64,000 nucleotides of DNA from the NCBI RefSeq assembly GCF_022811645.1, contig NZ_CP094534.1, positions 3,286,001 through 3,350,000 on the forward strand, in the 5' to 3' direction. Below, one piece after another: positions 3,414 through 60,242 of this stretch. This DNA comes from Hymenobacter monticola (lineage in GTDB: Bacteria > Bacteroidota > Bacteroidia > Cytophagales > Hymenobacteraceae). The notes under the pieces were generated by a model. The model was not told where the DNA came from. It saw nothing but the letters and a program-made list of their open reading frames with translations, and made no database searches. Both the position numbers and the translations under genes were made by a program. How positions within the stretch are numbered: the stretch's first letter is position 1; every line of letters begins with the position of its first letter.

Positions 3414-3432
3414 CTACCGCTCCGTTCAACGG

Positions 3433-3491
3433 GGCGCCTCACCCCCCGGCCCCCTCTCCGAAAAGGAGAGGGGGCTAGGGGGTGAGGCGCC
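3433..3491. repeat. family-D palindrome, compact form
   Basis: A near-perfect 59-bp inverted repeat: a GGCGCCTCACCCCC-type arm runs into CTCTCC-GAAA-GGAGAG and back to GGTGAGGCGCC. It would form a long hairpin between the GH78 and GH105 genes. It is the same sequence family as the start-codon-bracketing repeats at 9490, 25470 and 36974, but with no spacer. Confidence 0.85.
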
Positions 3492-6088: not shown

Positions 6089-7483
6089 ATGTCCAGATTC
6101 TTCCGCCTGCTCCTAGGTTCGCTTTTCCTCACTACCGCCGCCCAGGCGCAAAACTCCGACGACCAGTACCGAGAGCCGTTGCAGCAGGTGCTGGAGGAGA
6201 TTCAGCAGCGCTACGGGGTGAAAATCCGGCCCGATGCGGCCATGGTGAAGGACAAGTATGTGACCTACGCCGAGTGGCGCTTCCGCCCCGACGTGGACGA
6301 GACCTTGCGCAGTGTGCTGGCTCCATTCGACTACCAGGCAGCGAAAACCGGCGATAAAACTTACAAGCTCAAGACCTTCCAGTATCACCTCAAAACGCCC
6401 GACGAAGGCGCGGCCCAGTTGGCGCAGCTAGCCAGTCAGTACCACGACGCCGCCACCTGGGAAAAGCGCAAAGCCGAGTTGCGCAATTGCATGTGGTCGG
6501 CGTTGCGGCTGTCGCCGATGCCGGCCAAACCGGCCAGCAAGCCAATTATTACCAACAAGCGGCAATACGACGGCTACACGGTGGAGAATGTGGCCATCGA
6601 AACGCTGCCGGGCTACTACATGACCGGTTCGATTTATAAGCCGCTCAAATCCAAAGGCAAGGTTCCGGTCATTATCAGCCCTGACGGGCATTTTGGCGAC
6701 GGCCGCTACCGGGCCGATGCGCAGAAGCGCTGCGCCACGCTGGCCCGTATGGGCGCGATGGTGTACAGCTACGACCTGTTTGCCTGGGGCGAATCGCTGC
6801 TGCAATTTAAGGGCGAAGACCACCGCCGCAGCCTCGCCATGACGGTGCAGGCCCTGAACGGCGAGCGGGCCCTCGACTACCTGCTGTCGCTGAAAGACGC
6901 TGATAAAAACCGCGTGGCCATCACCGGCGGCTCGGGCGGCGGCAGCCAAACCATGCTGCTCACGGCCCTGGATGATAGAATCAAAGTGAGCGTGCCCGTA
7001 GTGATGCTCTCGACCTACCATAGTGGTGGCTGCCCCTGCGAAAGCGGCCAGCCCGTGCACCTCTGCGGCAACGGCACCAACAACGCTGAAATCGCCGCCA
7101 TGGCCGCCCCGCGCCCCCAATTAGCCATCACCGACGGCGGCGACTGGACTGCCCAAACGCCCGAAGTCGCCTACCCCTACCTCCAAAAAATCTATGGCTA
7201 CTACAGTAAAACAGACCTCGTGCAAAACACCCATCTGCCCAAGGAAGGCCACGATTACGGCCCCTCAAAGCGCCAGGCGATGTACGAGTTTCTGGCGAAG
7301 AACCTAGGGCTGAATCTGGCTGCCGCCGAGGATAAAACCGGCAAGCTGGACGAGTCAAAAGTGACCATCGAGAAGGAGGAAGCGCAGCGCGTTTTCGGGC
7401 CGAAAGGGGAGGGGCTGCCGGCCAATGCGCTGCACAGTTTCGAGGATTTGCAGACGGTTTTCGCAAAAGCGGTAGCGCCGTGA
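6089..7483 (+). CDS. secreted alpha/beta-hydrolase (acetyl-esterase-like) with N-terminal STN-like domain
   Basis: The 464-residue protein has a signal peptide (MSRFFRLLLGSLFLTTAAQA). About 80 residues follow that resemble the secretin/TonB short N-terminal (STN) fold, with PLQQVLEEIQQRYGVKI and a second half at VDETLRSVLAPF. From about residue 165 a dienelactone-hydrolase/acetyl-xylan-esterase-like domain runs to the end. Predicted nucleophile elbow is GGSGGGSQ near residue 277, and a catalytic His lies in EGHDYG near 392. A cysteine-rich stretch (GGCPCESGQPVHLCG) follows the elbow. It probably removes acyl groups from the glycan attacked by its neighbours. The STN-like domain on an esterase is unusual; the domain call rests on pattern only. 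Confidence 0.78.
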   Translation: MSRFFRLLLGSLFLTTAAQAQNSDDQYREPLQQVLEEIQQRYGVKIRPDAAMVKDKYVTYAEWRFRPDVDETLRSVLAPFDYQAAKTGDKTYKLKTFQYHLKTPDEGAAQLAQLASQYHDAATWEKRKAELRNCMWSALRLSPMPAKPASKPIITNKRQYDGYTVENVAIETLPGYYMTGSIYKPLKSKGKVPVIISPDGHFGDGRYRADAQKRCATLARMGAMVYSYDLFAWGESLLQFKGEDHRRSLAMTVQALNGERALDYLLSLKDADKNRVAITGGSGGGSQTMLLTALDDRIKVSVPVVMLSTYHSGGCPCESGQPVHLCGNGTNNAEIAAMAAPRPQLAITDGGDWTAQTPEVAYPYLQKIYGYYSKTDLVQNTHLPKEGHDYGPSKRQAMYEFLAKNLGLNLAAAEDKTGKLDESKVTIEKEEAQRVFGPKGEGLPANALHSFEDLQTVFAKAVAP

Positions 7484-7484
7484 A

Positions 7485-7600
7485 CGATGTAGAGACGCAA
7501 CATTTTGCGTCTCGTCGTTGGACGGTCGGCATCGCGCAGAACCGCTCATACTAAACAACATAAGCAACGACGAGACGCAAAATGTTGCGTCTCTACATCG
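7485..7600. repeat. family-B inverted repeat
   Basis: Arms of 36 bp (7485-7520 and 7565-7600) built around GTAGAGACGCAACATTTTGC and its inverse, with a 44-bp spacer. The arm ends 6 bp before the ATG of the next gene. Other copies are at 19847 and 39576. Confidence 0.92.
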
Positions 7601-7606
7601 CCCGAC

Positions 7607-9484
7607 ATGCTCCGAACAGTTATTCTTAAAGTTCTCTTTGCCCTCAGCCTGCTAGCCGCCGCGCCCGCCCGCGCCGCCGACATCTGGGTAGCGCCCACCG
7701 GCTCCGACCGCAACCCTGGCACCCAGGCCCAGCCGCTGGCCACCCCAAATGCCGCCCTGCGCCAAGCTCGCGACCTGCGCCGCCTGCACGATGCCTCGGT
7801 GGCCGATGGCGTGCACATCTGGCTGAAGGGCGGCGAGTACCGATTGACGGAACCGTGGTTTTTTTGGCCCGAGGATGCGGGCACGGCCGCCAGCCCCACG
7901 GTGGTAGCCGCCGCGCCGGGCGAGCACCCAGTACTGAGCGGCGGCGTGTCGGTAACGGGCTGGCATAAAGCAGTTGGTAAAGTTGCTGGTCTGCCGGCTA
8001 TCGCGCAGGGCCAGGTTTGGGTAGCCGCCGCGCCGCTGCTAGCAGGCCGCGCCCTCAACTTTCGCCAGTTGTGGGTGAATGACCGCAAAGCCACGCGCGC
8101 CCGCACGCCCAACCACGACAACCTGCCCCGCCTGCTTACCTGGGACACCGACAAGCGTGAAACCACCGTGCCGGCTGCCGCCCTAGGTGGCATAAAGCAA
8201 CCCATCCAGCTGGAAATGGTTCTGCACCAGATGTGGGCCGTGAACGTGCTTCGGGTAAGAAACCTGGCCGTGCAGGGCGACAAAGCCCGGCTAACGTTTC
8301 AGGAACCCGAAAGCCGCGTGCAGTTTGAGCACCCGTGGCCTCGGCCCATTATCAATGGCAAAAACGGCAGCTCGGCCTTCTACCTAAGCAATGCCATCGA
8401 GCTGCTCGACCAGCCCGGCGAGTGGTTTTATGACGCCCCGCACGGGCAGGTGTACTACTGGCCCCGCGCCGGCGAAAACCTGGCCACTGCCAAAGTGGTA
8501 GCGCCGGCCTTGGAAACGCTGGTGCAAGTGCAGGGCACCCTTGACCAGCCGGTGAGCTACGTGCAGTTTAAGGGGCTGACCTTTTCCTATACCACCTGGC
8601 TGCGGCCGTCGCAGCAGGGCCACGTGCCGCTGCAAGCCGGCATGTACTTGCTGGATGGCTACTCGCTGGCCAAGCCGGGCACGCCCGACAAAGCCGGCCT
8701 CGAAAACCAGGCCTGGATAGGGCGGCCACCGGCCGGGGCGCAGGTGCAGGGCGCGCACCACACGCGCTTCGAGCGCTGCCAGTTCCTGCACATGGGCGCT
8801 ACGGGGCTCGATTACCAAAGCGGCACCCACGACGATGCAGTGGTGGGCTGCACCTTCCGCGACGTGGCTGTGAATGGCCTGCAACTGGGTAAGTTCTCGG
8901 ATGAGGGCGTGGAAACCCACCTGCCTTACAACCCAAAGGATGAGCGCGAAATCTGCACCACTGAACTGATAGAAAACAACCTTGTCACGGACTGTGGCAA
9001 CGAGGACTGGGGCGCGGTAGGCATCGCCGCTGGTTTCGTGCGCAATACCACCATCCGGCACAACGAGGTGGTGCAGGTGCCCTACACCGGCATCAGCCTG
9101 GGCTGGGGCTGGACCAAAACGGCCAACGCCATGCGCGATAACCGTGTGCAGGCCAATTACATCCACCACTACGCCCAGCACACCTACGATGTGGCGGGCG
9201 TGTACACGCTCTCGGCCCAGCCGGGCACGGTTATCAGCGAAAACCGGGTCGATGAAATCGGCCGGGCGCCCTACGTGCACGACCCCGACCACTGGTTCTA
9301 CCTCTACCTCGACGAGGGCTCCTCCAACATCACGGTGCAGGACAACTGGTGCCCGGCCGAAAAATTCCTGGCCAATGCCAACGGTCCGGGCAACGTGTGG
9401 AAGAACAACGGCCCGATGGTGAGCGAGTCAATAAAGCAGGCAGCAGGGCTGGAAGCGGGGTATCAGGATTTGCGGAACCCCTGA
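7607..9484 (+). CDS. secreted right-handed beta-helix glycosidase, GH141-like
   Basis: The 625-residue product starts at the ATG at 7607, which gives a signal peptide (MLRTVILKVLFALSLLAAAP); the frame is open upstream only because it runs through a family-B repeat. After a DIWVAPTGSDRNPGT segment, typical of parallel beta-helix enzymes, come an inserted domain (about 110-290) and a long beta-helix (about 300-600). Motifs such as GVYTLSAQPGT near 535 and YLDEGSSNI near 570 match my recollection of family GH141, which includes an alpha-L-fucosidase used on rhamnogalacturonan II and a xylanase. It may therefore remove a deoxy-sugar side group. Assignment to GH141 rather than another beta-helix family is tentative; secretion and fold are clear. 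Confidence 0.75.
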   Translation: MLRTVILKVLFALSLLAAAPARAADIWVAPTGSDRNPGTQAQPLATPNAALRQARDLRRLHDASVADGVHIWLKGGEYRLTEPWFFWPEDAGTAASPTVVAAAPGEHPVLSGGVSVTGWHKAVGKVAGLPAIAQGQVWVAAAPLLAGRALNFRQLWVNDRKATRARTPNHDNLPRLLTWDTDKRETTVPAAALGGIKQPIQLEMVLHQMWAVNVLRVRNLAVQGDKARLTFQEPESRVQFEHPWPRPIINGKNGSSAFYLSNAIELLDQPGEWFYDAPHGQVYYWPRAGENLATAKVVAPALETLVQVQGTLDQPVSYVQFKGLTFSYTTWLRPSQQGHVPLQAGMYLLDGYSLAKPGTPDKAGLENQAWIGRPPAGAQVQGAHHTRFERCQFLHMGATGLDYQSGTHDDAVVGCTFRDVAVNGLQLGKFSDEGVETHLPYNPKDEREICTTELIENNLVTDCGNEDWGAVGIAAGFVRNTTIRHNEVVQVPYTGISLGWGWTKTANAMRDNRVQANYIHHYAQHTYDVAGVYTLSAQPGTVISENRVDEIGRAPYVHDPDHWFYLYLDEGSSNITVQDNWCPAEKFLANANGPGNVWKNNGPMVSESIKQAAGLEAGYQDLRNP

Positions 9485-9489
9485 CATGG

Positions 9490-9649
9490 GCGCCTCACCC
9501 CCGGCCCACTCTCCGAAAAGGAGAGGGGGAGCCTGATGAATGCACGGAATGAACAATTGATTTTTATGAAAGAAAACACCAAAGCCGCCACAAGAAAGTT
9601 GTCTGGCTCCCCCTCTCCTTTTCGGAGAGGGGGCCGGGGGGTGAGGCGC
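9490..9649. repeat. family-D inverted repeat enclosing the start of the next gene
   Basis: Arms 9490-9533 and 9605-9649 are nearly perfect inverse copies (about 44 bp), each itself an imperfect hairpin (CTCTCC...GGAGAG). The 71-bp spacer holds ATG codons at 9536 and 9566. The right arm is translated as the SGSPSPFRRGGRGVRR part of the next protein and ends in an in-frame GTG (9641). Confidence 0.92.
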
Positions 9650-11800
9650 ACCGTTTGGGCAGTTCTGCTCTTGTTTTCAACTCTCCCCAGCTTCGCCCAA
9701 CGCGCCACCTGGATTTGGTATCCCGGCGACTACGAAATCTGGCTGGGCAACCAGATGCAGAACCGGCGCACCGAGCGCGGCACCTTCTTCCCGGTATTCT
9801 GGCGGATGGACAGCCACTACGTGCTCATCGACTTCCACAAGGATTTCGACCTTACGCAGCCCGAGGAAGTGGAACTGCGTGCCGAAGGCCAGTACAATGT
9901 GAAGCTCGACGGCAAGCCCCTGACCGGCGCGCCCACCCGCCTAACAGTGCCGGCCGGCAAGCACCGCATCAATATCAAAGTATATAACCAGGCCACGCCG
10001 CCGGCCGTGTTTGTGCGCGGCAAAACCATTGCCTCCGATGCGTCGTGGCTGGTGACTTATGAGGACAAGGAGTGGATTGACGCCTCGGGCAAAACCTCCG
10101 ACCAATCGGGCACCACCTGGCTGCAAGCCGGGGCTTGGAATTTTGACTCGCTAGAGGCGCGGCCTTCCACTTTCAAGCTGCCGACCGAGATGCGGCGGGC
10201 TGCCCGTGTGGAACGCAATGGGCAAAATATGGTGGTCGATTTTGGGCGCGAAACCTTCGGCTACATCAAGCTGCACGGGGTGAAAGGCAAAGGGCAGGTG
10301 GCCGTGTATTTTGGCGAATCGAAGGAAGAAGCTTTAGCAACTGAAACCGGCGAAACGCTGGAATACCTGGCCGTGGACCAGCCGCAGAAGGGCGACCAAA
10401 CCACGAGTTTATCCAAAGCGTTTCGCTATGTAAACATCCGGCCCGGGGCAGGCGTCAGCCTCGATTCGGTGTCGATGCTCTACGAATATGCGCCGGTGGC
10501 GGAGCGGGGTAAATTCCGCTGCTCCGATGCGCAGCTGAATAAAATCTGGGACGTGGCGGCTTACACCATGCACCTCAATACGCGGGAGTTTTTCATCGAC
10601 GGTATTAAGCGCGACCGGTGGGTGTGGTCGGGCGACGCTTACCAGAGCTATTTGATGAATTACTATCTGTATTTCGACACGCCGACCGTGAACCGCACGC
10701 AGTTTGCGCTGCGCGGCAAAGACCCGGTGACCAGCCACATCAACACCATCATGGACTACAGCTTCTACTGGTTCATCAGCGTATACGATGCTTACCAATA
10801 TACCGGCGACAAGGCCCAGGTGCAGCAGCTCTACCCCCGCATGCAGAGCCTGATGGACTACTGCCTCGGCCGCCGCAACAAGGACGGTCTGATGGAGGGC
10901 TTGGCTGGCGACTGGGTGTTCATCGACTGGGCCGATGGGCTGAGCAAGAAGGGTGAAGTGAGCTTTGAGCAGCTGCTGCTGTGCCGCAGCCTCGAAAGCA
11001 TGGCGTTGTGCGCCAAGCTAGTCGATGACCGGGCTGGCGCGCAGAAATACCAGCAACTGGCCACTGACCTCAAGGCCAAAGTCTTCGCCACCTACTGGAA
11101 TGCCGGCAAGGGCGCGCTGGTGCACAGCCGCGTCAACGGCCAGCCTACCGACAACGTGACGCGCTACGCCAACATGTTCGCCATCTTCTTCGACTACCTC
11201 AGCCCCGAGCAGGAGCAGCAGGTGAAGAAATCGGTGCTGCTGAACCCGCAGGTGCCCAAAATCACGACGCCCTACATGCGCTTCTACGAGCTGGAAGCGC
11301 TGTGCGCGATGGGCGAGCAACCCTACGTGCTCAAGGAAATGAAGTCGTACTGGGGCGGCATGTTGAACGAGGGCGCCACGTCGTTTTGGGAGGAATACGA
11401 CCCCACTAAAAAAGGCACTGAGCACCTGGCCATGTATGGCCGGCCCTTCGGCAAGAGCCTGTGCCACGCCTGGGGCGCCAGCCCGATTTACCTGCTGGGT
11501 AAGTACTACCTCGGCGTGAAGCCCCTCACGGCCGGCTACGCCACCTACGAAGTAGTGCCCAACCTTGGCGGCCTGCAATGGATGGAGGGCACCGTGCCCA
11601 CGCCGCAGGGCGACATCACGGTGGCCGCCAGCCCCAAGCAACTGAAGGTGAAAGGCGCGATGGGTACCGGCACGCTGCGTTTCAAAAGCAAGTCAAAGCC
11701 TTCTTGCAAGGGTGGCAAAATCGTTTCGAAAGGCAGCGAGCAGTACGAGCTAACGCTGGAAAAAGGGCGCGAATACGTGGTGACTTATCAGGCGCTGTAA
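9536..11800 (+). CDS. GH78-type alpha-L-rhamnosidase, secreted
   Basis: Predicted alpha-L-rhamnosidase of 754 residues. It shows a beta-sandwich N-terminal half and an (alpha/alpha)6 barrel with the subfamily motif DGIKRDRWVWSGD near 350-362 and, in the C-terminal half, GATSFWEEYDP near 616-626, which supplies the predicted catalytic Glu. The start is ambiguous. ATG codons at 9536 or 9566 give a long n-region, partly encoded by the family-D repeat, before the hydrophobic core WAVLLLFSTLPSFAQ. A GTG at 9641 inside the repeat would give a tidy signal peptide beginning MRRTVWAV. The stop overlaps the next start (TAATG), implying translational coupling with the mutarotase-like gene, which fits joint handling of released rhamnose. 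Confidence 0.88.
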   Translation: MNARNEQLIFMKENTKAATRKLSGSPSPFRRGGRGVRRTVWAVLLLFSTLPSFAQRATWIWYPGDYEIWLGNQMQNRRTERGTFFPVFWRMDSHYVLIDFHKDFDLTQPEEVELRAEGQYNVKLDGKPLTGAPTRLTVPAGKHRINIKVYNQATPPAVFVRGKTIASDASWLVTYEDKEWIDASGKTSDQSGTTWLQAGAWNFDSLEARPSTFKLPTEMRRAARVERNGQNMVVDFGRETFGYIKLHGVKGKGQVAVYFGESKEEALATETGETLEYLAVDQPQKGDQTTSLSKAFRYVNIRPGAGVSLDSVSMLYEYAPVAERGKFRCSDAQLNKIWDVAAYTMHLNTREFFIDGIKRDRWVWSGDAYQSYLMNYYLYFDTPTVNRTQFALRGKDPVTSHINTIMDYSFYWFISVYDAYQYTGDKAQVQQLYPRMQSLMDYCLGRRNKDGLMEGLAGDWVFIDWADGLSKKGEVSFEQLLLCRSLESMALCAKLVDDRAGAQKYQQLATDLKAKVFATYWNAGKGALVHSRVNGQPTDNVTRYANMFAIFFDYLSPEQEQQVKKSVLLNPQVPKITTPYMRFYELEALCAMGEQPYVLKEMKSYWGGMLNEGATSFWEEYDPTKKGTEHLAMYGRPFGKSLCHAWGASPIYLLGKYYLGVKPLTAGYATYEVVPNLGGLQWMEGTVPTPQGDITVAASPKQLKVKGAMGTGTLRFKSKSKPSCKGGKIVSKGSEQYELTLEKGREYVVTYQAL

Positions 11801-19826: not shown

Positions 19827-19846
19827 GCTTCAAGTGACCGCAAGAG

Positions 19847-19954
19847 GTAGAGACGCAATATTTTGCGTCTCGTCGTTGCTGATGTTGTTTAATCTGCGCG
19901 GTTTAGTGAGGTTCCGGTCGTTCAACGACGAGAGGCAAAATATTGCGTCTCTAC
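19847..19954. repeat. family-B inverted repeat
   Basis: Arms 19847-19878 and 19923-19954 around GTAGAGACGCAATATTTTGC and its inverse with one mismatch, with a 44-bp spacer, the same spacer length as the 7485 copy. It is located between the GH127 stop (19968) and the esterase start (19826). Confidence 0.92.
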
Positions 19955-19967
19955 ACCGTTCCAAAAT

Positions 19968-22023: not shown

Positions 22024-25000
22024 TTAGTGGGTTTGCGAGTCAGTAGATTGGCTGGTGCTGAGGCGCACGGGGCCCAGCAGGCCGGCCGGCAGCAGCGGCT
22101 TGTTGGCGGCCGGCGAAGCGGCCGTGGTTTGGGTGAGGCGCTTTTCGGGCGGCAGGCTTTGGTCACCGATGAGGCGGTTGGCCCAGGTGTTGGTGACGAG
22201 GATGCGAAGCTCGTTGTCGCCTTTCCGGATGGCGTCGGTGATGTCGAGGCGGTAGGGGGCCGTCCAGGCAATGCCGCAGGGCTTGCCGTTTAGCTGCACT
22301 TCGGCGATGTTGGCGAGCTGGCCCAATTCCAACCACACGCGCTGCTGCGTCCCTTTCGCCGGTTTCCACTTGAAAGTTTGGCTGTACTCGGCGGTGCCGG
22401 AATAATGGCTGATGGCCGCATTCGGGTGCTTGCTCCAATCGGTGAGTTGAGCGAAGGCCACCGGCTGCGCCGGACCGCCCATTGTGGGGTCGAAGCGCAC
22501 TTGCCAAGCCCCGTTCAGGGTCTGCACCGGCCGCGTTTCCGTCCAGTTCACACCCGCGTGGGTGCCAGTCTGCGTGCTCGGCTCGCGGAAAACCACGAAA
22601 ACAGAACCGTTGCGGTCCAGGTGAAGCGGCAGCAGCGTGCGGCCGTTTTCAGTTTTCCAAGCGGAAGCCGGGCGAGTTTCACCGGTTACGGCATCCCACA
22701 ATTCCGGCTTGCGGCCCGCTACGCGCAAACTGAGGTCGATGGTGCGAGCCGAATCGAGCTGGTTGGAAATGAAATAGATGTCGAAATTCGGCGCGGTGCG
22801 GTGCGTCCAGGCGATGCCATTGGCGCGTTGGCCGCTGGTAGCGTTGGCGGTTACATCGGGAGCTAACCCTCGCCCTAACGATGCGAAGGAAGCACGAGTG
22901 TAGGGGCCACGTAGCACGAGGCCATCACCGCGTCTGCTAATAGGGTCAGGCAATGTTACAGTATCCGCTAGTGCTGCAAATTTTGTTATCTCTTGTTGCA
23001 CCGCTACATCAGCAGTGGGGTAGTTCTGAAATGATGGCGAATGATTGGGCTGCCGGTTGAGCAACACCGCGGCTCCAGCATCTACTAGCTCCCGAAGCTT
23101 CTTCGCCACTTCCGGTGACATAGCGCTGCTATCCGGACTCATTTTCAGCGCACCAGGCACCACCAGCAGGCCGTAGCTGGCGCCGCCCGGCAGAACGATG
23201 CGGCCGTTTTCTACCTTCGCCAGCCGCAGCAGCGCGTCCTTGTTGAAGGAATCGTATTGGTAGCCGTGCAGCGGGTCCACCAGCATGTCGGCCGTTTCCA
23301 TGTTGGCCGAGGCAGATACTTTTTCGGGTTGCTCGCGCATGGGCAGGCCCGCGTTGGCAAGGCGCTTTTGCTCGGCGGCCACAGCTTGCGGGCCGAGAAT
23401 GCCGGGCAGGTCATTCACCAAGCGGTTGGGCAGGATGGCCCGGCGCGGCGTTTCCTCGCCCGTAAACACGGCCACGTCTACCACCGGGCGGCCGAGCTGC
23501 AGCAGCGCCTGGCAGCGGCGGGCATAGTCGACCCAGGCGCGGCCGGGTTTCCACCAGGTTTGGTCGCGCTGGAAAAACAGGCCGATGCTGCTCAGCGTCA
23601 TGCCCGGCTTGCGGTCGAGCCAGGGGTTGTGCACGAACACGTGGTACACCAGGCGGTTGACACCCAGCGCGTAGTTACGGTCTTGCAAGGCTTTGAGCAT
23701 GCCGGGATGTTCGTCCCAGGCCAGTTTCAGCTCCGTGAAAGCCTCGGCCTGCACAATTTTTTTGCCGTAGATGTGCGCGCCCGACACGGCGTCGAGCATG
23801 TCGTTGGGCTTGTCGTGGGTGGGGCTGCGCAGCCAGAATTCACCCATCGGCGCGTCGGCGTGCTGGTAGTGCAGCAGGCCGTCGCTCACCATGGTGGGCG
23901 CGATGGCCTCGGCGGAAAATGTGCAGCCTTTGGCGTGCGCCAATTCCTTTAGCGTTACATAAAACTTATCGTTCACCAGCTCTGCAATGGTCTGGCGCAC
24001 ATCGAACAGCACCCGCTCCGACTGGTCGGCGCTGCCCAGCGGCACGCCGGCCATCACGGGCAGCCAGGGCAGCAGGTCGTAGCCGCGCCGCTGCTTGAAC
24101 TCCGATGGAAAGTTGGCCGACCAGTTCTGCGAGCCGCACTCCCAGCTGTCGACGTGGAAGACCTTGAGCACCCGCGCCGCCAACTCCGGCCCGCCCTGCC
24201 GCACGGCCTCGCCAAACCACTTGTCGAACTGCAGGCTCACGGCGGCGGGGTTGAACTTGTCGCACTCCAGCCCGCGCCCGCCGCCGCCGGTGGTGTTGAT
24301 TTGGCCGGTGCTGGTGTGGCCCATGCGCAGGATGGTCCAGCGGCCGGGCGGCGCGGTCCAGGTCAGGCGGCCGTTGGCGTCGAGCTTGTCGGTCAGGTTG
24401 AGGATTTTGCTCAGCGGCACGCACTGCGCGTGGGGCAGTTGGGCGGGCGTGGTGCGCTGGCTCACGCGCCACACGTCGCCGTTTTTGCCCTCGAACTGGT
24501 GAATGTGCGCCTCACCCGACAGCTGGATTTCCGACACTTTCAGGCTTTGCTTCCACTTGGCCGCGTCAAGGTCTTCGGCGCCCGGCTCCGAGCCGGCGGG
24601 GTCGTAGGCAAACCGGAAAAACCGGGCCGTGGTGGCAGGCAGCGCGTGGGTCACGGCGCTGCTGTCCTGCCAGCCGCTGCGGGGGGGCTGCAGCCGTGTC
24701 ACCTCACTATAAGTACGGCCGTCGTCGCTCACTTCCACCCGCAGGCGGTTGGCTTGGTAGTTATAGCCGTTGGACCGGATGCGGATAGAGCGGCAGGTGA
24801 AGGGCTGGTCGAAGGCGTACTGAATCCAGCCCGATTCGCTGGTTTTGAAGCCTTTCTTATTGCCAGCCGTGGCCAGTAGCTCCAGGTTTTCGCCGGTCAG
24901 GCTGCTGGTTATGGTAGGCTTAATCGTGGCTGTTGAAACACCGCTACCGATTGGAGTGGGAAAGGCGTACACCGCCACGTCGCGGTAGTAGCCCTGCATT

Positions 25001-25551
25001 CGGGGCGGCTGGGGCAGCGTCAGGCTCAGCTTTTTGCCGCCGGTCACTTGCGTTTGGGCCGATACCACGTGCTGCATCGACAGCTCCGGCGTTATCCATG
25101 GCCCGCCGGCCAGCGCAAAACCGTCGCTCACGTGCATGGCCAGTTTCAGGCCCAGTCGGTCGGCTTCCTGCATGGAGTGCTTCACCATAGCCCACCATTG
25201 CGGCGAGAGCTGCCGGGCGGGCGGCGAAATGGCCGGCGGGTTTTCCACATCCTTTATCGGCATCAGATATGCCCCGCCGATGCCGGCTTCCTTCATGGCT
25301 TCCAGGTCGGCGGTGATGCCGGCCGGGGTCACGGCTCCGTTCATCCAGTACCAAAACACCCACGGCCGTGCCGCTTCCGGCGGGTTTTTGAAGACGGATT
25401 CTAAATCGGGCGCCTGCTGGGCGCACACCGGGGCCGGCAGGGCGCACGCCAGGAGTAGCCCAAACGCCAAACCCCACCCCCGGCCCCTCCCCTCTGGGGG
25501 AGGGGAGCCTGATGCTAAGACAGTAGGGCTAATTTTTTTATTGATAATCAT
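22024..25551 (-). CDS. GH106 alpha-L-rhamnosidase, secreted
   Basis: A large 1175-residue enzyme with the GH106 opening ARPWVFWYWMNGAVTP near residues 60-75 and GITADLEAMKEAGIGGAYLM near 77-96, then a TIM-barrel-like core. C-terminal beta-sandwich domains include a galactose-binding-like module (GTQQRVWLELGQLANIAEV near 1080). In Bacteroides thetaiotaomicron GH106 cleaves an alpha-L-rhamnosyl bond in rhamnogalacturonan II. The residues after the annotated ATG (LASGSPPPEGRGRGWG) are encoded by one arm of a family-D repeat and form the n-region before the signal core LAFGLLLACALPAPVCAQ. No ATG or GTG lies between repeat and core, although a TTG does. It is co-directional with FucP upstream and only 4 bp from GH127 downstream. 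Confidence 0.92.
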   Translation of the reverse strand: MIINKKISPTVLASGSPPPEGRGRGWGLAFGLLLACALPAPVCAQQAPDLESVFKNPPEAARPWVFWYWMNGAVTPAGITADLEAMKEAGIGGAYLMPIKDVENPPAISPPARQLSPQWWAMVKHSMQEADRLGLKLAMHVSDGFALAGGPWITPELSMQHVVSAQTQVTGGKKLSLTLPQPPRMQGYYRDVAVYAFPTPIGSGVSTATIKPTITSSLTGENLELLATAGNKKGFKTSESGWIQYAFDQPFTCRSIRIRSNGYNYQANRLRVEVSDDGRTYSEVTRLQPPRSGWQDSSAVTHALPATTARFFRFAYDPAGSEPGAEDLDAAKWKQSLKVSEIQLSGEAHIHQFEGKNGDVWRVSQRTTPAQLPHAQCVPLSKILNLTDKLDANGRLTWTAPPGRWTILRMGHTSTGQINTTGGGGRGLECDKFNPAAVSLQFDKWFGEAVRQGGPELAARVLKVFHVDSWECGSQNWSANFPSEFKQRRGYDLLPWLPVMAGVPLGSADQSERVLFDVRQTIAELVNDKFYVTLKELAHAKGCTFSAEAIAPTMVSDGLLHYQHADAPMGEFWLRSPTHDKPNDMLDAVSGAHIYGKKIVQAEAFTELKLAWDEHPGMLKALQDRNYALGVNRLVYHVFVHNPWLDRKPGMTLSSIGLFFQRDQTWWKPGRAWVDYARRCQALLQLGRPVVDVAVFTGEETPRRAILPNRLVNDLPGILGPQAVAAEQKRLANAGLPMREQPEKVSASANMETADMLVDPLHGYQYDSFNKDALLRLAKVENGRIVLPGGASYGLLVVPGALKMSPDSSAMSPEVAKKLRELVDAGAAVLLNRQPNHSPSFQNYPTADVAVQQEITKFAALADTVTLPDPISRRGDGLVLRGPYTRASFASLGRGLAPDVTANATSGQRANGIAWTHRTAPNFDIYFISNQLDSARTIDLSLRVAGRKPELWDAVTGETRPASAWKTENGRTLLPLHLDRNGSVFVVFREPSTQTGTHAGVNWTETRPVQTLNGAWQVRFDPTMGGPAQPVAFAQLTDWSKHPNAAISHYSGTAEYSQTFKWKPAKGTQQRVWLELGQLANIAEVQLNGKPCGIAWTAPYRLDITDAIRKGDNELRILVTNTWANRLIGDQSLPPEKRLTQTTAASPAANKPLLPAGLLGPVRLSTSQSTDSQTH

Positions 25552-25612
25552 CTGTATGAGCCTTTAACGTCAGGCTCCCCTCCCCCGGAGGGGAGGGGCC
25601 GGGGGTGGGGTT
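25470..25612. repeat. family-D inverted repeat enclosing the GH106 start
   Basis: Arms 25470-25512 and 25571-25612 (about 42 bp) are inverse copies with one or two differences. The 58-bp AT-rich spacer contains the minus-strand ATG at 25551. The inner arm is translated in the GH106 signal peptide. A short GATGCCGGGGGTGGGGT echo follows at 25616. Confidence 0.92.
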
Positions 25613-27443: not shown

Positions 27444-27452
27444 GAGAGAGAA

Positions 27453-27576
27453 GTAGCTTGGACTCTGCGAGTCCGAGCGCGAGCGCAGCGAGCATCTGCG
27501 TTTGCGTGGTTTAGAAAATTTACCTTGGCGCAGATGCTCGCTGCGCTCGCGCTCGGACTCGCAGAGTCCAAGCTAC
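27453..27576. repeat. family-C inverted repeat, downstream copy
   Basis: Perfect-looking 48-bp arms (27453-27500 and 27529-27576) with core GGACTCTGCGAGTCCGAGCG and its inverse. Each arm also holds a nested palindrome (GGACTCTGCGAGTCC). The outer end GTAGC supplies the TAG stop of the oxidoreductase gene at 27573. The second copy is at 32269. Confidence 0.93.
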
Positions 27577-28640
27577 TGTTTGCCGTCGCTCGAAGCGTAG
27601 GCGGCCTCTACCACGGCCATGGTTTTTATCACGTCTTCCACGCTGGTGGGCAGCACGTCGGTTTCGCCGTTTTTGTAGCGCATCAGGCTGCCCATCGTGC
27701 CCATGAAGGCATCCGGAAACCAGGAACCTTCCAGCGCCACAGTGTGCCACACCGGCTTTTCGTCTTCGCGCATGAGGCAATATTCGAACTTGTCGGGCAC
27801 GCCGTTCGGGTAGTCCATCAGCAGGCCCATGCGGGCCTTAATGGCGCCTTTAGTGCCTTCCCACTTGATGAAGCTCTCCTGGTTTTCGGGGCCGAAAGAG
27901 TGGTCGTGGTTGGTGTTGATGACGGCGTGCATGGTGTCGCCGTAGTCGAACAGAATGGTGGAGCGCGACGACGACAGCGCCTTGGCCGGATGCCGCAAGG
28001 TCTTGGCCATAACTCGGTTTGGCTCGCCCAGGAAGCTGCGAATCAGGTCGATGTAGTGGATGCTGTGGTACTGAATTTCGAGGCGCGGGTGCACCATCAC
28101 GTGGGGGAACAGCTCCCAGGGCGTTTCCAGCGTCACGCGCACTTCTAGGTCGTACAGCTCGCCGATGAGGCCCTGGCGCAGCATCTCGCGGGCGGCGGAC
28201 ACGTAGGGCGCAAAGCGCAGCTGGCAGTTGATGGCGGCCACCAGGTTCTTGCGGCGGCACACGTCCAGGATTTCCTGGCTCTGCCAGAAGTAGTCGCCCA
28301 TGGGCTTCTGAATCAGCACGCCCGCTCCGTCGGGCAGTTGCTCCAGCGTCTCCACAAACTGCTCGGGCATGATGGTGATGTCGTACACGGCGTTGGCGGG
28401 CGCGTGGGCCACGGCCTCGGCCACCGAATCGTACACGTGCGGGATGCCCCAGGCGGCGGCCAGCTTCTCGGCCCGGGCGCGGGTGCGGTTGGTGATGCCT
28501 ACAACTGCAAAACCGGCCTTGCGGTAGGCCGGCAAATGCGCGTCGTTCACGATGCCGCCGGCGCCAATGATGACGATGGGCAGTGGCCGCTGCGGCAGCA
28601 CGGGCAGGTAGTTGATTTCGTGGCTGTCGATGTTAAACAT
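27573..28640 (-). CDS. Gfo/Idh/MocA family oxidoreductase
   Basis: The 355-residue cytosolic protein starts at ATG 28640, inside the last codons of the upstream solute-binding-fold gene (8-bp overlap, so translationally coupled). The Rossmann start IVIIGAGGIVNDAHLPAY (about 22-39) carries a GxGxxxxxxH variant. The cofactor/catalytic motif is VLIQKPMGDY near 108-117 and the substrate-side segment is IQYHSIHYIDLIRSFLGEP near 192-210. It is distinct from the family member at 12845. In the module it could oxidise or epimerise a sugar or sugar acid handled by the adjacent CoA-transferase. Its stop codon is formed by the end of a family-C repeat. Confidence 0.88.
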   Translation of the reverse strand: MFNIDSHEINYLPVLPQRPLPIVIIGAGGIVNDAHLPAYRKAGFAVVGITNRTRARAEKLAAAWGIPHVYDSVAEAVAHAPANAVYDITIMPEQFVETLEQLPDGAGVLIQKPMGDYFWQSQEILDVCRRKNLVAAINCQLRFAPYVSAAREMLRQGLIGELYDLEVRVTLETPWELFPHVMVHPRLEIQYHSIHYIDLIRSFLGEPNRVMAKTLRHPAKALSSSRSTILFDYGDTMHAVINTNHDHSFGPENQESFIKWEGTKGAIKARMGLLMDYPNGVPDKFEYCLMREDEKPVWHTVALEGSWFPDAFMGTMGSLMRYKNGETDVLPTSVEDVIKTMAVVEAAYASSDGKQ

Positions 28641-32251: not shown

Positions 32252-32268
32252 GGGGGTATGATTGGAAT

Positions 32269-32382
32269 GTAGCGTGGACTCTGCGAGTCCGCGCAACGAG
32301 CATAGCGAGTAGTAGCGTGAGGGCATTGTAGGCGCGAGCTACCCGCTGCGCTCGTTGCGCGGACTCGCAGAGTCCACGCTAC
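32269..32382. repeat. family-C inverted repeat, upstream copy
   Basis: Arms about 32269-32315 and 32336-32382 with GTGGACTCTGCGAGTCCGCG and its inverse, less perfect at the inner ends than the 27453 copy. The outer GTAGC forms the TAG stop of the SBP2 gene (32379). With the 27453 copy it brackets the CoA-transferase/SBP1/oxidoreductase genes. Confidence 0.9.
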
Positions 32383-33536
32383 ATCGTTTTGGATTTCACA
32401 TACAGCTCGTTCAACTCGCGTAGCAGCGCCCGCTCGTCGCCGCCGTTCATCAGGTACTGGCGCACGGGCTCGCCGGCATGGTCCTGGAAGAACATGTGGC
32501 CGTGGTAGCGCGGGCGCAGAAAGGCGCGCTGCAAAGCGGGCAGCGTGGCGGCGAAGTAGTTGCTGGATTGGGCGTTCACCGGCGCATCCTGCCAGGCGCT
32601 GAGGTGGCCGGGCTGGCCGCCGTTGTCGAAGTACAGCGTTTGCTGGCAGGCGGGCGAGGCCACGAACTCGGCGTAGCGCACGGCGGTGGCTACGTCGGCA
32701 CATTTGGCCGAGATGGCCAAGCCGGTGCCGCCGAGCGTGCTGCGCAGGCGCGTGCCACCGGGTGCTAGGCTTACCATGTCGTGGAAGTGCAGCAGGCGGC
32801 GGGCGTAGCCGCGGCGGGCGTAGTTGGAGTAGCCGTAGGCGAAGGGGCAGTAGGCCAGCGCGTCGGTCTGCGTCATGGCCTCGTACACCTGGATGGGGTT
32901 GCGCTGGAAGCAGGCCGGGTCCACCTTGCTGGCTAGCTCGCGGAACATCTGCAGGGCCTGCACGCCCACTGCTTCGCTCACCACTTCGGTCTCGCGCTGG
33001 CAGGGGTCTTCGCCCAGCGAGCAGCAGAACATGTAGAAGCTCATCAGCGTGTCGATGGGGATGAGCGCGAAAGCCACCAGGCCGCGGTCGGCCAGGGCCA
33101 ACAGGTCGGCGAAGGTTTCGGGCAGAGCTAGCCCGTGCTGGGCCAGCAGGTCGGGGCGGCTGGCGGCCACGGGCGTGGCCGCGTCGATGGGCAGCGCCCA
33201 CTGGTGGCCGTTGAAGTTGTAGCTCTCGAAGGAATGGCCCACGGTGTTGGCCTGCTGGTCGACCATAAAATCGGCCGGCAGGTACTCATCCAGCGGCAGA
33301 ATGGAGCCGGTGCGCGCCGCAAAACCGGCCCACGGGTGGTCAATCACCAGCAGGTCGAACCGCTCGGCCAGCTGCTGAATCGACTCATCGGCAAACTGCT
33401 GCAGGGAGCGTTTCTCCCAGGTGATGCTCACGTGGGGGTTTAGCTCGGCGAAGCGCTGGGCGGTGGCGGCCATCGGTACGAAGCCGCGGCTGTGGTTCCA
33501 GGTGATGCCTTTGAGGTGGAGGTGGGAGGAGGGCAT
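32379..33536 (-). CDS. second solute-binding-protein-fold protein without signal peptide (SBP2)
   Basis: A 385-residue protein of another branch of the solute-binding-protein fold: LKGITWNHSRGFVPMAATAQRFAE near 8-31, ITWEKRSLQQFADE near 38-51, FDLLVIDHPWAGFAA near 60-74 and LGGTGLAISAKCADVATAVRYAEF near 266-289. Like SBP1 it starts directly in the mature fold (MPSSHLHLKGITW) with no export signal, and no ABC transporter partner is present. It lies upstream of the CoA-transferase, separated by a family-C repeat, and probably belongs to the same transcription unit. Function unknown; ligand binding inside the cell is inference. Confidence 0.8.
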   Translation of the reverse strand: MPSSHLHLKGITWNHSRGFVPMAATAQRFAELNPHVSITWEKRSLQQFADESIQQLAERFDLLVIDHPWAGFAARTGSILPLDEYLPADFMVDQQANTVGHSFESYNFNGHQWALPIDAATPVAASRPDLLAQHGLALPETFADLLALADRGLVAFALIPIDTLMSFYMFCCSLGEDPCQRETEVVSEAVGVQALQMFRELASKVDPACFQRNPIQVYEAMTQTDALAYCPFAYGYSNYARRGYARRLLHFHDMVSLAPGGTRLRSTLGGTGLAISAKCADVATAVRYAEFVASPACQQTLYFDNGGQPGHLSAWQDAPVNAQSSNYFAATLPALQRAFLRPRYHGHMFFQDHAGEPVRQYLMNGGDERALLRELNELYVKSKTM

Positions 33537-33661: not shown

Positions 33662-37133
<3,472 letters not shown>

Positions 37134-37136
37134 ACG

Positions 37137-39557
37137 TCAGGGCTTGCTTTGAAGCGCCACCGAAGCTCCCGCCAGCCCCTCGGTCTCTGCCCGCAGCGTA
37201 ATCTGTCCGCCCTGCTCCTTCGTCTGAATAATGGCCAGTGCCATCCCGTTATAGGCCTTGCGCTCTGGCGCCTTGAACGATTCCATACTGGCCTGGTAAC
37301 CATTATCCACGCCCGCCACAAAGCCCGGCCCGTTCACCGTGAATTTCACCAGATTAGCCGCGTCGGGCACCAGGTTGCCATTAGCGTCCAGCACGCGCAC
37401 CGTCACGAAGGACAGGTCTTTGCCATCGGCTTGGAGCTGGCTTCGGTCGGCCATGAGTTCAATCTTGGCGGCAGGTCCGGCGGTTTTTACGGTGCTGGTG
37501 AGGACGGTTTTCCCGTCGCGGCGCGAAATGGCTTGCAGGGTGCCAGGGGCGTAGGGCACGCGCCACATCACGTGCAGGTCGTCGGGGCCTTTCTTTTTAG
37601 TGCCCAGCGACTTGCCGTTGAGAAAAAGCTCTACCTCATCGGCCTGGCTGTAGTAGGCCCACACGTCCACGGTTTGGCCGGGGCGCCAGTTCCAGTGGGG
37701 CAGCAGGTGCAGCACGGGCTGGTTGGTCCATTCGCTTTGGTACAGATAGTAAGCGTCTTTGGGGAAGCCGGCTAGGTCGATGAGGCCGAAGTACGAACTG
37801 CGGGCCGGCCAGGGGTAGGGCAGGGGCTCGCCTAGGTAGTCGAAGCCGCTCCACACGAAGGCTCCGCTAATGAACGGGCTGTTGCGTACGGCGCGCCACG
37901 CGGCCTCATGGGTGGCGCCCCAGTAGGGCGCGGCGTGGTCGTAGCTGGAGGCGGTGAAGTCGGCGTTGCCGGTGGTGAGCTTGGTTTTGCCGTCTTTGGG
38001 CCAGATGCGCAGGCTGTCGGAGGGCAGGTCGTAGTGGCCGCGCGTTTCGTAAGCCGCCGCGATTTCGGTTGCCAGGAAATGCTGGCCGGGGAAGCTGGTG
38101 GGCAGTTTGGGGTATTCAGCGTGCTTGTAGTTGAAGCTCAATACGTCGAGCACGCCGGCCTGGCTGATGAAGTTCTTGGCCGGTTCCTGCTCCGTGAGGG
38201 CGGAGGTGACGGGTCGCGTGGGGTCGAGGCGCTTCACGGTGGTGGTCAGCTGGCGGGCCAGGCGGGTGCCGGTGCTGTCGAACTGCTCGCGGATTTCGTT
38301 GCCGATGCTCCAGATGAATACGCTCGGGTGGTTGCGGTCGCGCCGAATCTGGTCTTCCAAATCGCGCTGGTGCCACTGCTTGAAATCGAGGTGGTAGTCC
38401 TGCGAGTTCTTCTTTTTCTGCCACATATCAAACGCCTCGTCCATTACCAGAAAGCCCATGCGGTCGCACAAGTCCAGCAACTGAGGCGCGGGCGGGTTGT
38501 GCGACATGCGAATGGCGTTGCAGCCCATGGCGCGCAGCAGCTGCAGCTGCCGCTCGGCCGCCCGCCCGTTAAACGCCGCCCCCAGCGCCCCCAGGTCGTG
38601 GTGCTGGTTCACGCCTTGGATGCGCAGCGGTTGCCCGTTCAGCAAAAAGCCTTTCTGCTTGTCGAATACGCAGGTGCGCACGCCCAGCGGCGTTTCGTAT
38701 TCGTCCGCCACTGCTTTACCGGCCAGTACCGTTGTTTTCACTCGATATAAATAGGGTTTCGTCACGGACCAAAGCTGCGGGTTCTTCAGGGTAAGTTTCT
38801 GCGAAACCGTGCCCGTCGCGCCGTTCAGCTTCACGCCGCCGCTTAGCTGCCGCGCCACTTCCTGGCCGCTTTTATCCAGCAATGTCGTTTGCAGCGTCAC
38901 CGTTTGAGGCTTGCCGGTGGCGTTGCGCAAGTGGGTTTGCACGGCCACGGTGGCGGCATGCGCGCTCACGGCGGGCGTCGTCACAAAAGTGCCCCACTCA
39001 TCTACGGCTACCTGGTGCGTCGTCACCAGCCGCACGTTGCGGTAGATGCCTGAGCCGGTGTACCAGCGCGAGTCCGGCTGGGGCGAGTTATCGACGCGCA
39101 CGGCCAGCACGTTGGGCTGGCCGCTGGGGCGCAGGTAGGGCGTCAGCTCATAGCGGAAGGAGATGTAGCCGTTTGGCCGGTAGCCCAGCGAATGGCCGTT
39201 CAGCCATACCTCGCTGTGCTTGTACACGCCATCGAACTCGACAAACACATTGCGGCCCGTGGTGGCCGGCAGGGTAAACGTCTTGCGGTACCAGCCGATG
39301 CCGGTGGGCAGGCCGCCGCCCTCGGGTTTAGAAGGATTCTTCTCGTCAAATTTTCCCTCGATGCTCCAGTCGTGCGGCAGCGTGAGTAGGCGCCACGCGG
39401 CGTCGTTGAAGGACGCTTCTTTGGCGCCGGCTTCGTCCCCGAGGTAGAACTTCCAGCCTTTGTTGAAGCCGGTGGTCACCCGCACTGGCGGCGGTGCGCC
39501 AAAAGACGCATTTGATGCGCCGAGCAGCAGCAGAAACAGGATGAGCAGACGGGACAT
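37137..39557 (-). CDS. GH2 family glycosidase with C-terminal Ig-like domains, secreted
   Basis: The 806-residue protein starts at ATG 39557 (signal core MSRLLILFLLLLGASNASFG); the frame is open further upstream only across a family-B repeat. The N-terminal jelly-roll has WKFYLGDEAGAKEASFNDAAW. The TIM barrel follows with the predicted acid/base in IWSIGNEIREQ near 420 and nucleophile in FLATEIAAAYE near 497. A DUF4982-like and a bacterial Ig-like domain (AKIELMADRSQLQADGKDLSFV near 700-720) end the protein. This layout is common in Bacteroidetes GH2 beta-galactosidases and beta-glucuronidases. It is the second of two adjacent but dissimilar GH2 genes, suggesting two beta-linked residues in the target glycan. 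Confidence 0.9.
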   Translation of the reverse strand: MSRLLILFLLLLGASNASFGAPPPVRVTTGFNKGWKFYLGDEAGAKEASFNDAAWRLLTLPHDWSIEGKFDEKNPSKPEGGGLPTGIGWYRKTFTLPATTGRNVFVEFDGVYKHSEVWLNGHSLGYRPNGYISFRYELTPYLRPSGQPNVLAVRVDNSPQPDSRWYTGSGIYRNVRLVTTHQVAVDEWGTFVTTPAVSAHAATVAVQTHLRNATGKPQTVTLQTTLLDKSGQEVARQLSGGVKLNGATGTVSQKLTLKNPQLWSVTKPYLYRVKTTVLAGKAVADEYETPLGVRTCVFDKQKGFLLNGQPLRIQGVNQHHDLGALGAAFNGRAAERQLQLLRAMGCNAIRMSHNPPAPQLLDLCDRMGFLVMDEAFDMWQKKKNSQDYHLDFKQWHQRDLEDQIRRDRNHPSVFIWSIGNEIREQFDSTGTRLARQLTTTVKRLDPTRPVTSALTEQEPAKNFISQAGVLDVLSFNYKHAEYPKLPTSFPGQHFLATEIAAAYETRGHYDLPSDSLRIWPKDGKTKLTTGNADFTASSYDHAAPYWGATHEAAWRAVRNSPFISGAFVWSGFDYLGEPLPYPWPARSSYFGLIDLAGFPKDAYYLYQSEWTNQPVLHLLPHWNWRPGQTVDVWAYYSQADEVELFLNGKSLGTKKKGPDDLHVMWRVPYAPGTLQAISRRDGKTVLTSTVKTAGPAAKIELMADRSQLQADGKDLSFVTVRVLDANGNLVPDAANLVKFTVNGPGFVAGVDNGYQASMESFKAPERKAYNGMALAIIQTKEQGGQITLRAETEGLAGASVALQSKP

Positions 39558-39575
39558 TGGGTGGGAGTTTGAGAG

Positions 39576-39716
39576 GTAGAGACGCGACACTTCGCGTCGC
39601 GTCGTTAGCTTCGCTGAACTGCGTTTGCGGATGTTGTTTGGGCTGCGCGGGTTGAATGCAAACGGCGCGGTTCTGGTCGTTCTGGCAGGAGACGCGAAGT
39701 GTCGCGTCTCTACATC
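39576..39716. repeat. family-B inverted repeat, GC-rich variant
   Basis: Arms about 39576-39606 and 39688-39716 around GTAGAGACGCGACACTTCGC and its inverse, with a longer spacer (about 80 bp) than the other family-B copies. The right edge abuts the stop of the propeller gene at 39719. Confidence 0.88.
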
Positions 39717-39718
39717 GT

Positions 39719-40852
39719 TCATTTTTTGGCTTCTTTCGGTTTCTTCACTGGCGGCGCAATGAAGGCCACCGCACTCTTGCCCAAATCCTTTGACGTAGCC
39801 ACGGCAATGCCGCGCTGGTCGGCCTTGTTCACGGCGCAGTAGTAGTGGTACACTACGCCTTTGTATTTCAGTACGAAGGACTTGTGGGCAAACAGCTCAT
39901 CATAAGGCTCGGAAGGCTCCACCAAATTTGCCCCCGTCCAATCGGTCCAGTGGGTGAGGTCGTAGGAGCAGGCGAAGCGGTTCACGGCGCCCTTCACGCC
40001 GGGGTAGAAGGCGCCGAAGTAGAACATCACCCACAGGCCGCTGTCCATCTTCTGCAGGTAGGCGTCGCCGGTGATGCCGGTGTGGTGGTTGAGCACGGGG
40101 TTGCGCAGGTAGCGCGTCCAGTGCGTCATGTCGTCGCTCACGGCCATGCCGATGCGCTCGGCCCCGCGCTTGGCGTTGAGGCTGTCGCCGTTGGCGTTGT
40201 AGTACATCACAAAGGGATGGCCGGTGAGCTTGGCCCGGTCCCAGGTCACGGAGCTTTTGTAGATGGTGTGGTTTTCCCACCAGCGCACATCCTTGTCGTC
40301 GGGGCGCAGCACGGGCTTGGCCAGGCGCTGCCAGGTGGGCAGGGTGGTGGGGTCCTTGTAGGTCGAGGCGAGGCTGATGGAGAGCAGGCCCTTTTCGTAG
40401 CCGCGCGAGTTGCCGCCGAAGTACGACAGCCAGTACTTGCCCTGGTAGGGCTGCCACTCGTAGCTGCCGCCCCACTTAGCATCTTGCAGGGCCACGTAGC
40501 CGGCTTTTTGGTTGGTGTCCCAATCCGTTGTGTCGGTGAAAGCCAGGATTTTGCCCTTGGTTTCCCATTTCAGCAGGTCCTTGCTCTGAGCCAGCCAGGT
40601 TTCGTAGCCGCGCCCGTCGAAGATGATGTAAGTCATCCACCACTGCCCGTTTTTGCGGAACACCGTGGGGCAGTCCATTTTCTTCTGGTTGTCGTCCGTC
40701 ACCAGCACGAGGCCGTATTTGTGGGGCGTCTTCACCTCCTCGTACACCTTCTGCATCTCGGCGGCGGGCACGTCTTTGGGCAGCACTTTCTGCGCCCAAG
40801 CCGGTTGGCACAGGCCGCTGATGAGCAAGAGGGAGGCAAGCTTGATTTTCAT
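39719..40852 (-). CDS. secreted five-bladed-propeller glycoside-hydrolase-like protein, family unclear
   Basis: The 377-residue protein starts at ATG 40852 (signal MKIKLASLLLISGLCQPAWA), 4 bp after the GH78 stop, so it is co-transcribed with that gene. The mature part looks like a five-bladed beta-propeller: repeated strand pairs such as KMDCPTVFRKNGQWWMTYIIF near 67-87, GKYWLSYFGGN, HPFVMYYNANG, GLWVMFYFG and GVVYHYYCAVN. An acidic residue early in blade 1 (MDCPTVF) is typical of GH43-, GH117- and GH130-type enzymes. I cannot place it in one family. The Lys-rich tail (PPVKKPKEAKK) is notable. Confidence 0.75.
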   Translation of the reverse strand: MKIKLASLLLISGLCQPAWAQKVLPKDVPAAEMQKVYEEVKTPHKYGLVLVTDDNQKKMDCPTVFRKNGQWWMTYIIFDGRGYETWLAQSKDLLKWETKGKILAFTDTTDWDTNQKAGYVALQDAKWGGSYEWQPYQGKYWLSYFGGNSRGYEKGLLSISLASTYKDPTTLPTWQRLAKPVLRPDDKDVRWWENHTIYKSSVTWDRAKLTGHPFVMYYNANGDSLNAKRGAERIGMAVSDDMTHWTRYLRNPVLNHHTGITGDAYLQKMDSGLWVMFYFGAFYPGVKGAVNRFACSYDLTHWTDWTGANLVEPSEPYDELFAHKSFVLKYKGVVYHYYCAVNKADQRGIAVATSKDLGKSAVAFIAPPVKKPKEAKK

Positions 40853-60170: not shown

Positions 60171-60242
60171 TAGTCCGTAGGGGAATCGAACCCCTGTTGG
60201 TAGAATGAAAATCTACTGTCCTAACCCCTAGACGAACGGACC
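60171..60242 (-). tRNA. tRNA-Glu (anticodon TTC)
   Basis: The minus-strand sequence folds as a tRNA: acceptor GGTCCGT with ACGGACT, D arm TCTAGGGGTTAGGA, anticodon stem GTAGA / TCTAC around loop TTTTCAT (anticodon TTC, Glu), T arm AGGGGTTCGATTCCCCT. The 3' CCA is not encoded. It is intact although it is the integration site, since the element restores the 3' end (60168-60193). Confidence 0.93.

Follow-up and report, generated by a model that had tools for sequence, protein, structure and literature searches.

Rickettsia palindromic elements (RPEs) are described as palindromes of about 150 bp that are located between genes and also, in frame, within the genes of unrelated proteins (excerpts of PMC10969869 and PMC2229807). 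REP sequences and REPINs include GTAG- and CGTC-tagged superfamilies that occur in high copy number as inverted dimers with spacers of 20-100 bp, and the excerpted 2013 survey places REPs mainly after genes and some of them inside genes (PMC3733652). The same text warns that many REPs at the N-termini of ORFs may not be codogenic and are perhaps a product of misannotation (PMC3733652). In Yersinia, a copy of the small mobile repeat RU-2 makes up residues 1-30 of the predicted signal peptide of YPO1552 (excerpts of PMC2759123 and PMC2229807). While that case concerns one putative protein of 144 residues, the pattern of the repeat analyzed here, family D, comprises 11 kinds of protein identified by Pfam, the three of the window included, in many species and with orthologues that test the reading frame. 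A literature search covering titles and the opening lines of abstracts returned no account of palindromic repeats encoding signal-peptide n-regions in Bacteroidota. In-frame RPEs, intragenic REPs and one partly repeat-derived signal peptide in Yersinia were already known; the arrangement described here differs from them in its recurrence and in the orthologues that put its frame to the test.

The window is a stretch of 64,000 nucleotides (G000:C1:3286001-3350000) of the 6.12-Mb Hymenobacter monticola genome. An earlier note on this DNA had claimed that three inverted repeats with a common layout bracket the start codons of secreted glycosidases. The three repeats are real and their pairs were recovered at all three sites, but the dimensions had to be corrected, since the arms are 39, 49 and 37 nt long instead of about 44 bp and the spacer of copy 2 is 45 nt instead of 58-71. 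In copy 1, on the forward strand, the pair 9498-9536/9602-9640 (39 nt, 95% complementary) is 65 nt apart, and the outer limits 9490 and 9649 take in adjoining similar bases. The TGA stop codon of the upstream GH141-type gene (9482-9484) lies within the outer end of this copy and is followed by the left, non-coding arm found by the repeat search (9490-9536), an ATG in the spacer that is shared with the orthologue L126 (9566-9568; an additional in-frame ATG is found earlier, at 9536), and the right arm (9602-9649), translated as SGSPSPFRRGGRGVRR and identified from the repeat pair, the translation and the orthologues. The n-region of the GH78-type alpha-L-rhamnosidase (9566-11800; ORF and Pfam) would come from this arm. 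Copies 2 and 3 are on the reverse strand. Copy 2 consists of the pair 25470-25518/25564-25612 (49 nt, 94% complementary, 45 nt apart), of which 25564-25612 is the outer, non-coding arm and 25470-25518 the inner arm, translated as SGSPPPEGRGRGWG; the spacer ATG (25549-25551), located by sequence and translation, opens the GH106 alpha-L-rhamnosidase (22024-25551; Pfam and 28 aligned loci), whose start appears to be repeat-encoded. Copy 3 has the pair 36982-37018/37090-37126 (37 nt, 100% complementary, 71 nt apart), an outer, non-coding arm at 37090-37133, an ATG in the spacer at 37061-37063 (sequence and translation) and an inner arm at 36974-37018 that translates into 14 residues and would supply the n-region of the GH2 beta-galactosidase (33662-37063; Pfam and orthologues). 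The stop codon of the gene upstream (37137-37139) falls in the end of copy 3. The stop codon of the upstream gene is found at or beside the element end in all three cases, so each element occupies the whole intergenic gap. A single family-D palindrome between genes (3429-3490, strand not assigned) has no visible coding role.

A family-D doublet is a spacer flanked by arms, each composed of a tail (e.g., CCTCACCCCC), a hairpin (e.g., CCCCTCTCC-loop-GGAGAGGGG) and an inner AGCC; copy 2 has the variant CCCCTCCCC. The conserved outer end extends about 16 nt past the TGAGG of the arm. The assignment of the three enzymes to GH78, GH106 and GH2 agreed with Pfam, and the ATG in the spacer and the in-frame inner arm are present in all three copies, with the translated arms as previously quoted. 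Translation from the spacer ATG would give MKENTKAATRKLSGSPSPFRRGGRGVRRTVWAVLLLFSTLPSFAQ in GH78, MIINKKISPTVLASGSPPPEGRGRGWGLAFGLLLACALPAPVCAQ in GH106 and a stretch of 47 residues in GH2, with predicted n-region net charges of +8, +3 and +6, respectively. The arm ends GTGAGGCGC and GTGAAGCGC, which had been put forward as an alternative GTG start, exist in two of the three copies, where the in-frame GTG would yield an n-region of 3-4 residues. The closest relatives of the GH78 enzyme are from Hymenobacter species (94-96% identity).

The distribution of family D in the genome was determined by exact-pattern searches, which returned 79 GAGGGG(N)CCGGGGG tails and 178 CCCCTC...GAGGGG hairpins, another family being included among the latter. 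Sixty stretches were sampled; among the matches listed, hairpin places extended up to 2.98 Mb, so that variant copies beyond that point are under-sampled. Genes were called over 751 kb, window included, using our own codon model, which is poor at choosing starts, and claims on starts rest on orthologues instead. In these 751 kb, 93 elements were recognized by pattern (56 doublets, 33 halves and 4 singles), a few of them doubtful halves (e.g., C1:1043655, C1:1037887 and C3:28514). The N-terminus of a protein is encoded by four elements, the three window copies and one in a VWA-domain protein gene at C1:3133079, and three more are in frame within longer ORFs, coding for a DUF3686/AAA protein, for Pnkp and for Hen1, where the copy separates the Hen1_L domain from the methyltransferase domain. 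The remaining 86 elements are intergenic. The proposal that the coding site is always the signal peptide does not hold, because three of these seven coding copies are inside other ORFs. The suggested link to carbohydrate-active enzymes also fails, with VWA, efflux and Omp85 proteins carrying the same arrangement. A genome-wide preference for gene starts, which the earlier note had named as a test, is not supported either (4 of 93 elements). On the 3′ side of genes, a stop codon was no more than 25 bp away in 47 of 90 flanks (median distance 23; 41 of 54 and median 17 for doublets), and on the 5′ side a called start was equally close in 11 of 94 (median 64.5), two of which belong to coding copies; family-D copies are therefore closer to gene ends than to gene starts. 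There was no preference for a type of gap: the 91 classifiable elements were in 72 tandem, 11 divergent and 8 convergent gaps, compared to 254, 73 and 40 among 367 reference gaps, which are all those of at least 100 bp in the same stretches, element-holding gaps included. Preservation of the coding arm (13 versus 1) was rejected as evidence of domestication because intergenic copies are equally biased (34 versus 11 in 62 intergenic elements).

Family D resembles REPINs in consisting of many inverted dimers (56 doublets among 93 elements) located mainly after genes. Membership in the tagged superfamilies was nonetheless rejected: CGTC is found in 17 of 71 type-A and in none of 22 type-B arms (background, 5%), and GTAG in 1 of 71 and 0 of 22. 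No family-D hairpin or tail was present within about 1.5 kb of the four Y1_Tnp loci of the genome (loci of about 3.2 kb), one of which, L062, has the GTCATGCTGAGC motif of another family, so that no link to a RAYT gene was seen. As for a MITE-like origin, these Y1 transposases were the candidates examined for a parent element, and empty sites were read in Pnkp. Other repeats were observed in the region. A second doublet family (GTAGAGACGC...GCGTCTC), with GTAG near its outer end (window 7486-7520), is found near gene starts at 7482-7600, 19844-19961 and 39573-39721 of the window, and in other species its arms are translated in GH2 signal peptides. Yet another family is formed by inverted repeats of 46-49 nt, perfect or nearly so, beside gene starts (window 27452-27577 and 32267-32384). 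The repeats of other families at 7482-7599, 32267-32384 and 39573-39721 of the window, which enclose the starts of ORFs, were considered as coding and rejected, as the ATG follows the element. Some family-D spacers contain the palindrome TAGCGYGGACT...AGTCCRCGCTA (near C1:3074157, C1:17802 and C1:552062; L070, L112 and L090, respectively), that is, repeats nest in repeats. Elsewhere in the window, the segment 53497-60450 looks like a small integrated element: a 35-nt repeat occurs at 53497, 60165 and 60416, its middle copy overlapping a tRNA (60171-60242), and the copies enclose a gene of the phage-integrase family (53710-54984). When Rfam was searched at gathering scores, a tRNA was the only hit in the window.

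Orthologues selected by the mature protein were used to examine the reading frame. For GH78, the window gene and 18 loci (L125-L142, from Hymenobacter and one Hymenobacteraceae MAG) were compared. An in-frame family-D arm was found in six (the window, L126, L129, L133, L136 and L142), all with an in-frame ATG upstream of the hydrophobic core; 11 loci have a different upstream palindrome and a short signal peptide (e.g., MIKPYLKRV), and in L132 and L140 no repeat was noticed. The arm of L129 is, by our count, 6 nt shorter, yet it remains in frame, and the GTG there is out of frame. Among the GH2 orthologues, 15 loci have a family-D arm and six have, in the same place, the unrelated GTAGAGACGC palindrome, translated throughout (RREVSRLYIVLVGFF or similar). 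An in-frame ATG was found 28-57 codons ahead of the core in 21 of 22 (family D 15/16, GTAGAGACGC family 6/6), the exception being the pseudogene L227, where the frame is closed. L226, from a close relative, has no element and a plain MKKLALAFLFL signal; L228 yielded no alignment, and more distant matches were left out. In L218, L222 and L223, among others, the left arm is not recognizable and the frame is kept. In a tree of 24 rows, many of its branches weak, the repeat type switches at least five times, at least three of them forced by starred branches. In the G112 locus (L209/L294), apparently two tandem arms are both in frame ahead of the core.

GH106 behaved differently in that, of the 28 loci aligned out of 30 fetched, the repeat is used as a start in the window alone. 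Many of the 28 begin with MKTRLLPKALL or similar, a start that the window gene has lost, and in L246, L247, L255 and L258 a family-D copy or half ends just ahead of the native ATG; a second species with a repeat-encoded start was not among the aligned loci. The VWA protein has a match in all 120 genomes of the genus, and the best 30 loci were fetched. An element or its remains was present in 25 of them (21 flagged by pattern, four by eye: L442, L444, L448 and L449), open in frame in every case, and absent from the other five. The ATG is mostly outside the left arm, so the entire element is within the predicted coding sequence; it is present upstream of the core in 24 of 25, the remaining locus, L442, being at a contig end. 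Alignment of orthologues that lack the repeat, a check that had been suggested, showed short signal peptides (L226 in GH2 and the five VWA loci) or, in many GH106 loci, a native start. The claim that the inner arm is translated as the n-region is supported by the conservation of the ATG-arm-core frame between species whose arms and spacers differ, and to judge from these sequences it looks correct.

Taken over the element-bearing loci, an upstream in-frame ATG was found in 51 of 53 (family D alone, 45 of 47). As a null, the 49 intergenic family-D doublets were read in a comparable manner, a reading being counted when it is open through the tail from an ATG in the element or at most 30 nt from it; 33 of 294 readings were open when all frames were taken together, and 13 of 85 when the GTG-AGG frame was considered alone. 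The spans of these doublets modulo 3 (0, 1 and 2) were 16, 14 and 19. The orthologous loci are related by descent and their counts are not independent; because of this shared ancestry and of slightly differing count windows, no p-value is given. These counts bear on the possibility that family-D copies are ordinary intergenic repeats, open by chance next to misannotated starts, with translation beginning at the GTG or TTG of the arm end to give MRR or MKR signal peptides. In its favor, a GTG or TTG lies in frame no more than 15 codons from the core in most loci, two of the window's three genes among them, many copies in this genome precede a gene that has its own ATG, and the 2013 REP survey warns of N-terminal copies in the excerpt cited (PMC3733652). 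Moreover, L206 has an ATG where other loci have GTG, and in L206, L444 and L449 the core is preceded by an ATG at a distance of 6-8 codons, a point in favor of a short start in these loci. This explanation leaves the excess of upstream ATGs over the null unaccounted for, as it does L129, L136, L429 and L438, which lack any ATG, GTG or TTG over the 15 codons next to the core. In these four loci the upstream ATG seems to be needed, which argues against a GTG start; the GTG start that the earlier note proposed is not available in every orthologue. A GC-rich hairpin would also be a poor setting for initiation, and we regard misannotation as unlikely.

The arrangement is not limited to the proteins of the window. 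A DNA pattern joining tail and core matched 31 places, spread over 26 of the 120 genomes of the genus, compared to 2 for the reversed pattern, with 10 of the 30 loci examined not being coding arms. An arm-plus-core profile built from 17 rows had matches in at least 96 of the 120 genomes, many of those listed being arms alone; since its rows combine the Arg-rich frame with the core, its matches favor this frame as well as exported proteins, and it is unable to measure frame or export bias. In 50 profile loci, 45 ORFs had an in-frame core; two of these ORFs (L312_+_1665 and L319) look spurious and were not counted. Pfam was applied to nine and identified GH2 with malectin, BT_1020-like sialidase, DUF5703, SASA esterase, DUF4450, OEP efflux, Omp85 and VWA proteins, one having no match. 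We take L317 to be GH3-like and L312 to be TolC-like. In a SASA esterase of H. monticola (L399), a GTAGAGACGC-family element is likewise in frame. Judging by their hydrophobic cores, the 11 kinds of protein are probably exported. At the family level (100 genomes), matches were found in two of six genera; the five loci examined from the second genus are GH78, GH2 and DUF5703-like, as judged by sequence.

A different coding context is provided by the Pnkp gene, in which a copy is inserted in frame at G000:C1:4166750-4166919 (L084). In many genomes, residues 1-231 and 285-932 of this protein have a match and the stretch between them has no counterpart. Among the orthologues (L345-L390), the comparison covered 12 empty sites (VRVTPPAGRRAIFLG and similar) and 34 that are occupied; the set is not random, since 30 of the 34 were the best full-length protein matches, which favors kept frames, and 16 were hand-picked. 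Visual inspection assigned 17 of the occupants to family D, eight to the GTAGAGACGC family and five to the ACTAGTTTCTAG family; one more is a nest of two, and three are decayed or unrecognized. The gaps measure 90-201 nt, of which about 15 nt are native, and are a multiple of 3 in 32 of 34; in the other two, L387 (G091) and L388 (G064), the gene halves are in different open frames. A tree of the flanking DNA required 17 state changes over 46 loci. Different families interchange in frame at this site, and such interchange is therefore not special to export signals. The likeness to RPEs noted earlier is sound, as family D is in frame within conserved protein genes (Pnkp, GH2, GH78 and VWA), and it is one of arrangement. 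Unlike RPEs, family D has the signal-peptide n-region as one recurrent coding site, and a single site can exchange one repeat family for another.

The arms could also act as RNA, pairing in the mRNA and gating the start codon as a translational switch for genes of polysaccharide use. The RNA 9486-9660 has a predicted free energy of -108.7 kcal/mol (z = -10.45), not equaled by any of 200 shuffles, so the repeat of copy 1 is not due to chance, and the arms are still complementary in many orthologues. Complementarity is, however, expected of such an element regardless. The predicted unpaired probability of the ATG bases was mixed (0.72-0.99 in GH78, 0.12-0.85 in GH106 and 0.40-0.66 in GH2), leaving the start neither cleanly hidden nor cleanly exposed. 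A recognizable left arm has been lost with the frame kept in L218, L222 and L223, and the VWA ATG is outside the left arm in most loci. A regulatory role modeled on this fold is very improbable. It is rather doubtful, too, that the element is favored as a portable module of stop, start and n-region and spreads by selection instead of tolerance. The upstream stop at the end of all three window copies, with the gap filled, and the swapping of unrelated families at the same signal peptide would suit such a module; against it, no more than 4 of the 93 elements in the sample code for an N-terminus, close relatives have element-free loci (L226), and the same interchange takes place in the Pnkp loop, where no benefit to export is expected.

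We consider it highly probable that family D consists of palindromic dimers similar to REPINs and RPEs that are tolerated in stretches of protein where they cost little and were then captured as n-regions. The dimers are probably mobile, presumably by means of a moving enzyme, and most would settle in intergenic gaps, where the outer end often lies at the stop codon of the preceding gene. A copy that enters or replaces the start of an exported protein would be kept if an open frame from an ATG to the core remains, the ATG being either within the spacer or a short way beyond the element and the frame passing one or both arms. The Arg-rich reading of the arm (one reading is RRGGRGVRR) would provide a positively charged n-region. 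Little else may be needed, as the Sec pathway would tolerate n-regions of great length and signal peptidase would remove the peptide on export. After loss of the native start, we propose, the frame and the ATG would be held by purifying selection, with charge as the putative selected property. More tentatively, several unrelated Hymenobacter palindrome families might constitute an exchangeable pool of N-terminal modules, in which one replaces another with the frame kept; mobile DNA would then supply start codon, n-region and upstream stop, and selection would act on frame and charge.

The comparative data bear on the common criticism that repeats at N-termini reflect faulty annotation, and they offer a testable case of repeat DNA repeatedly becoming functional parts of proteins. 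The Pnkp site provides dozens of natural alleles for studying the arrival and loss of intragenic palindromes. In exported proteins, a cleaved n-region that needs little but positive charge would serve as a cheap landing site.
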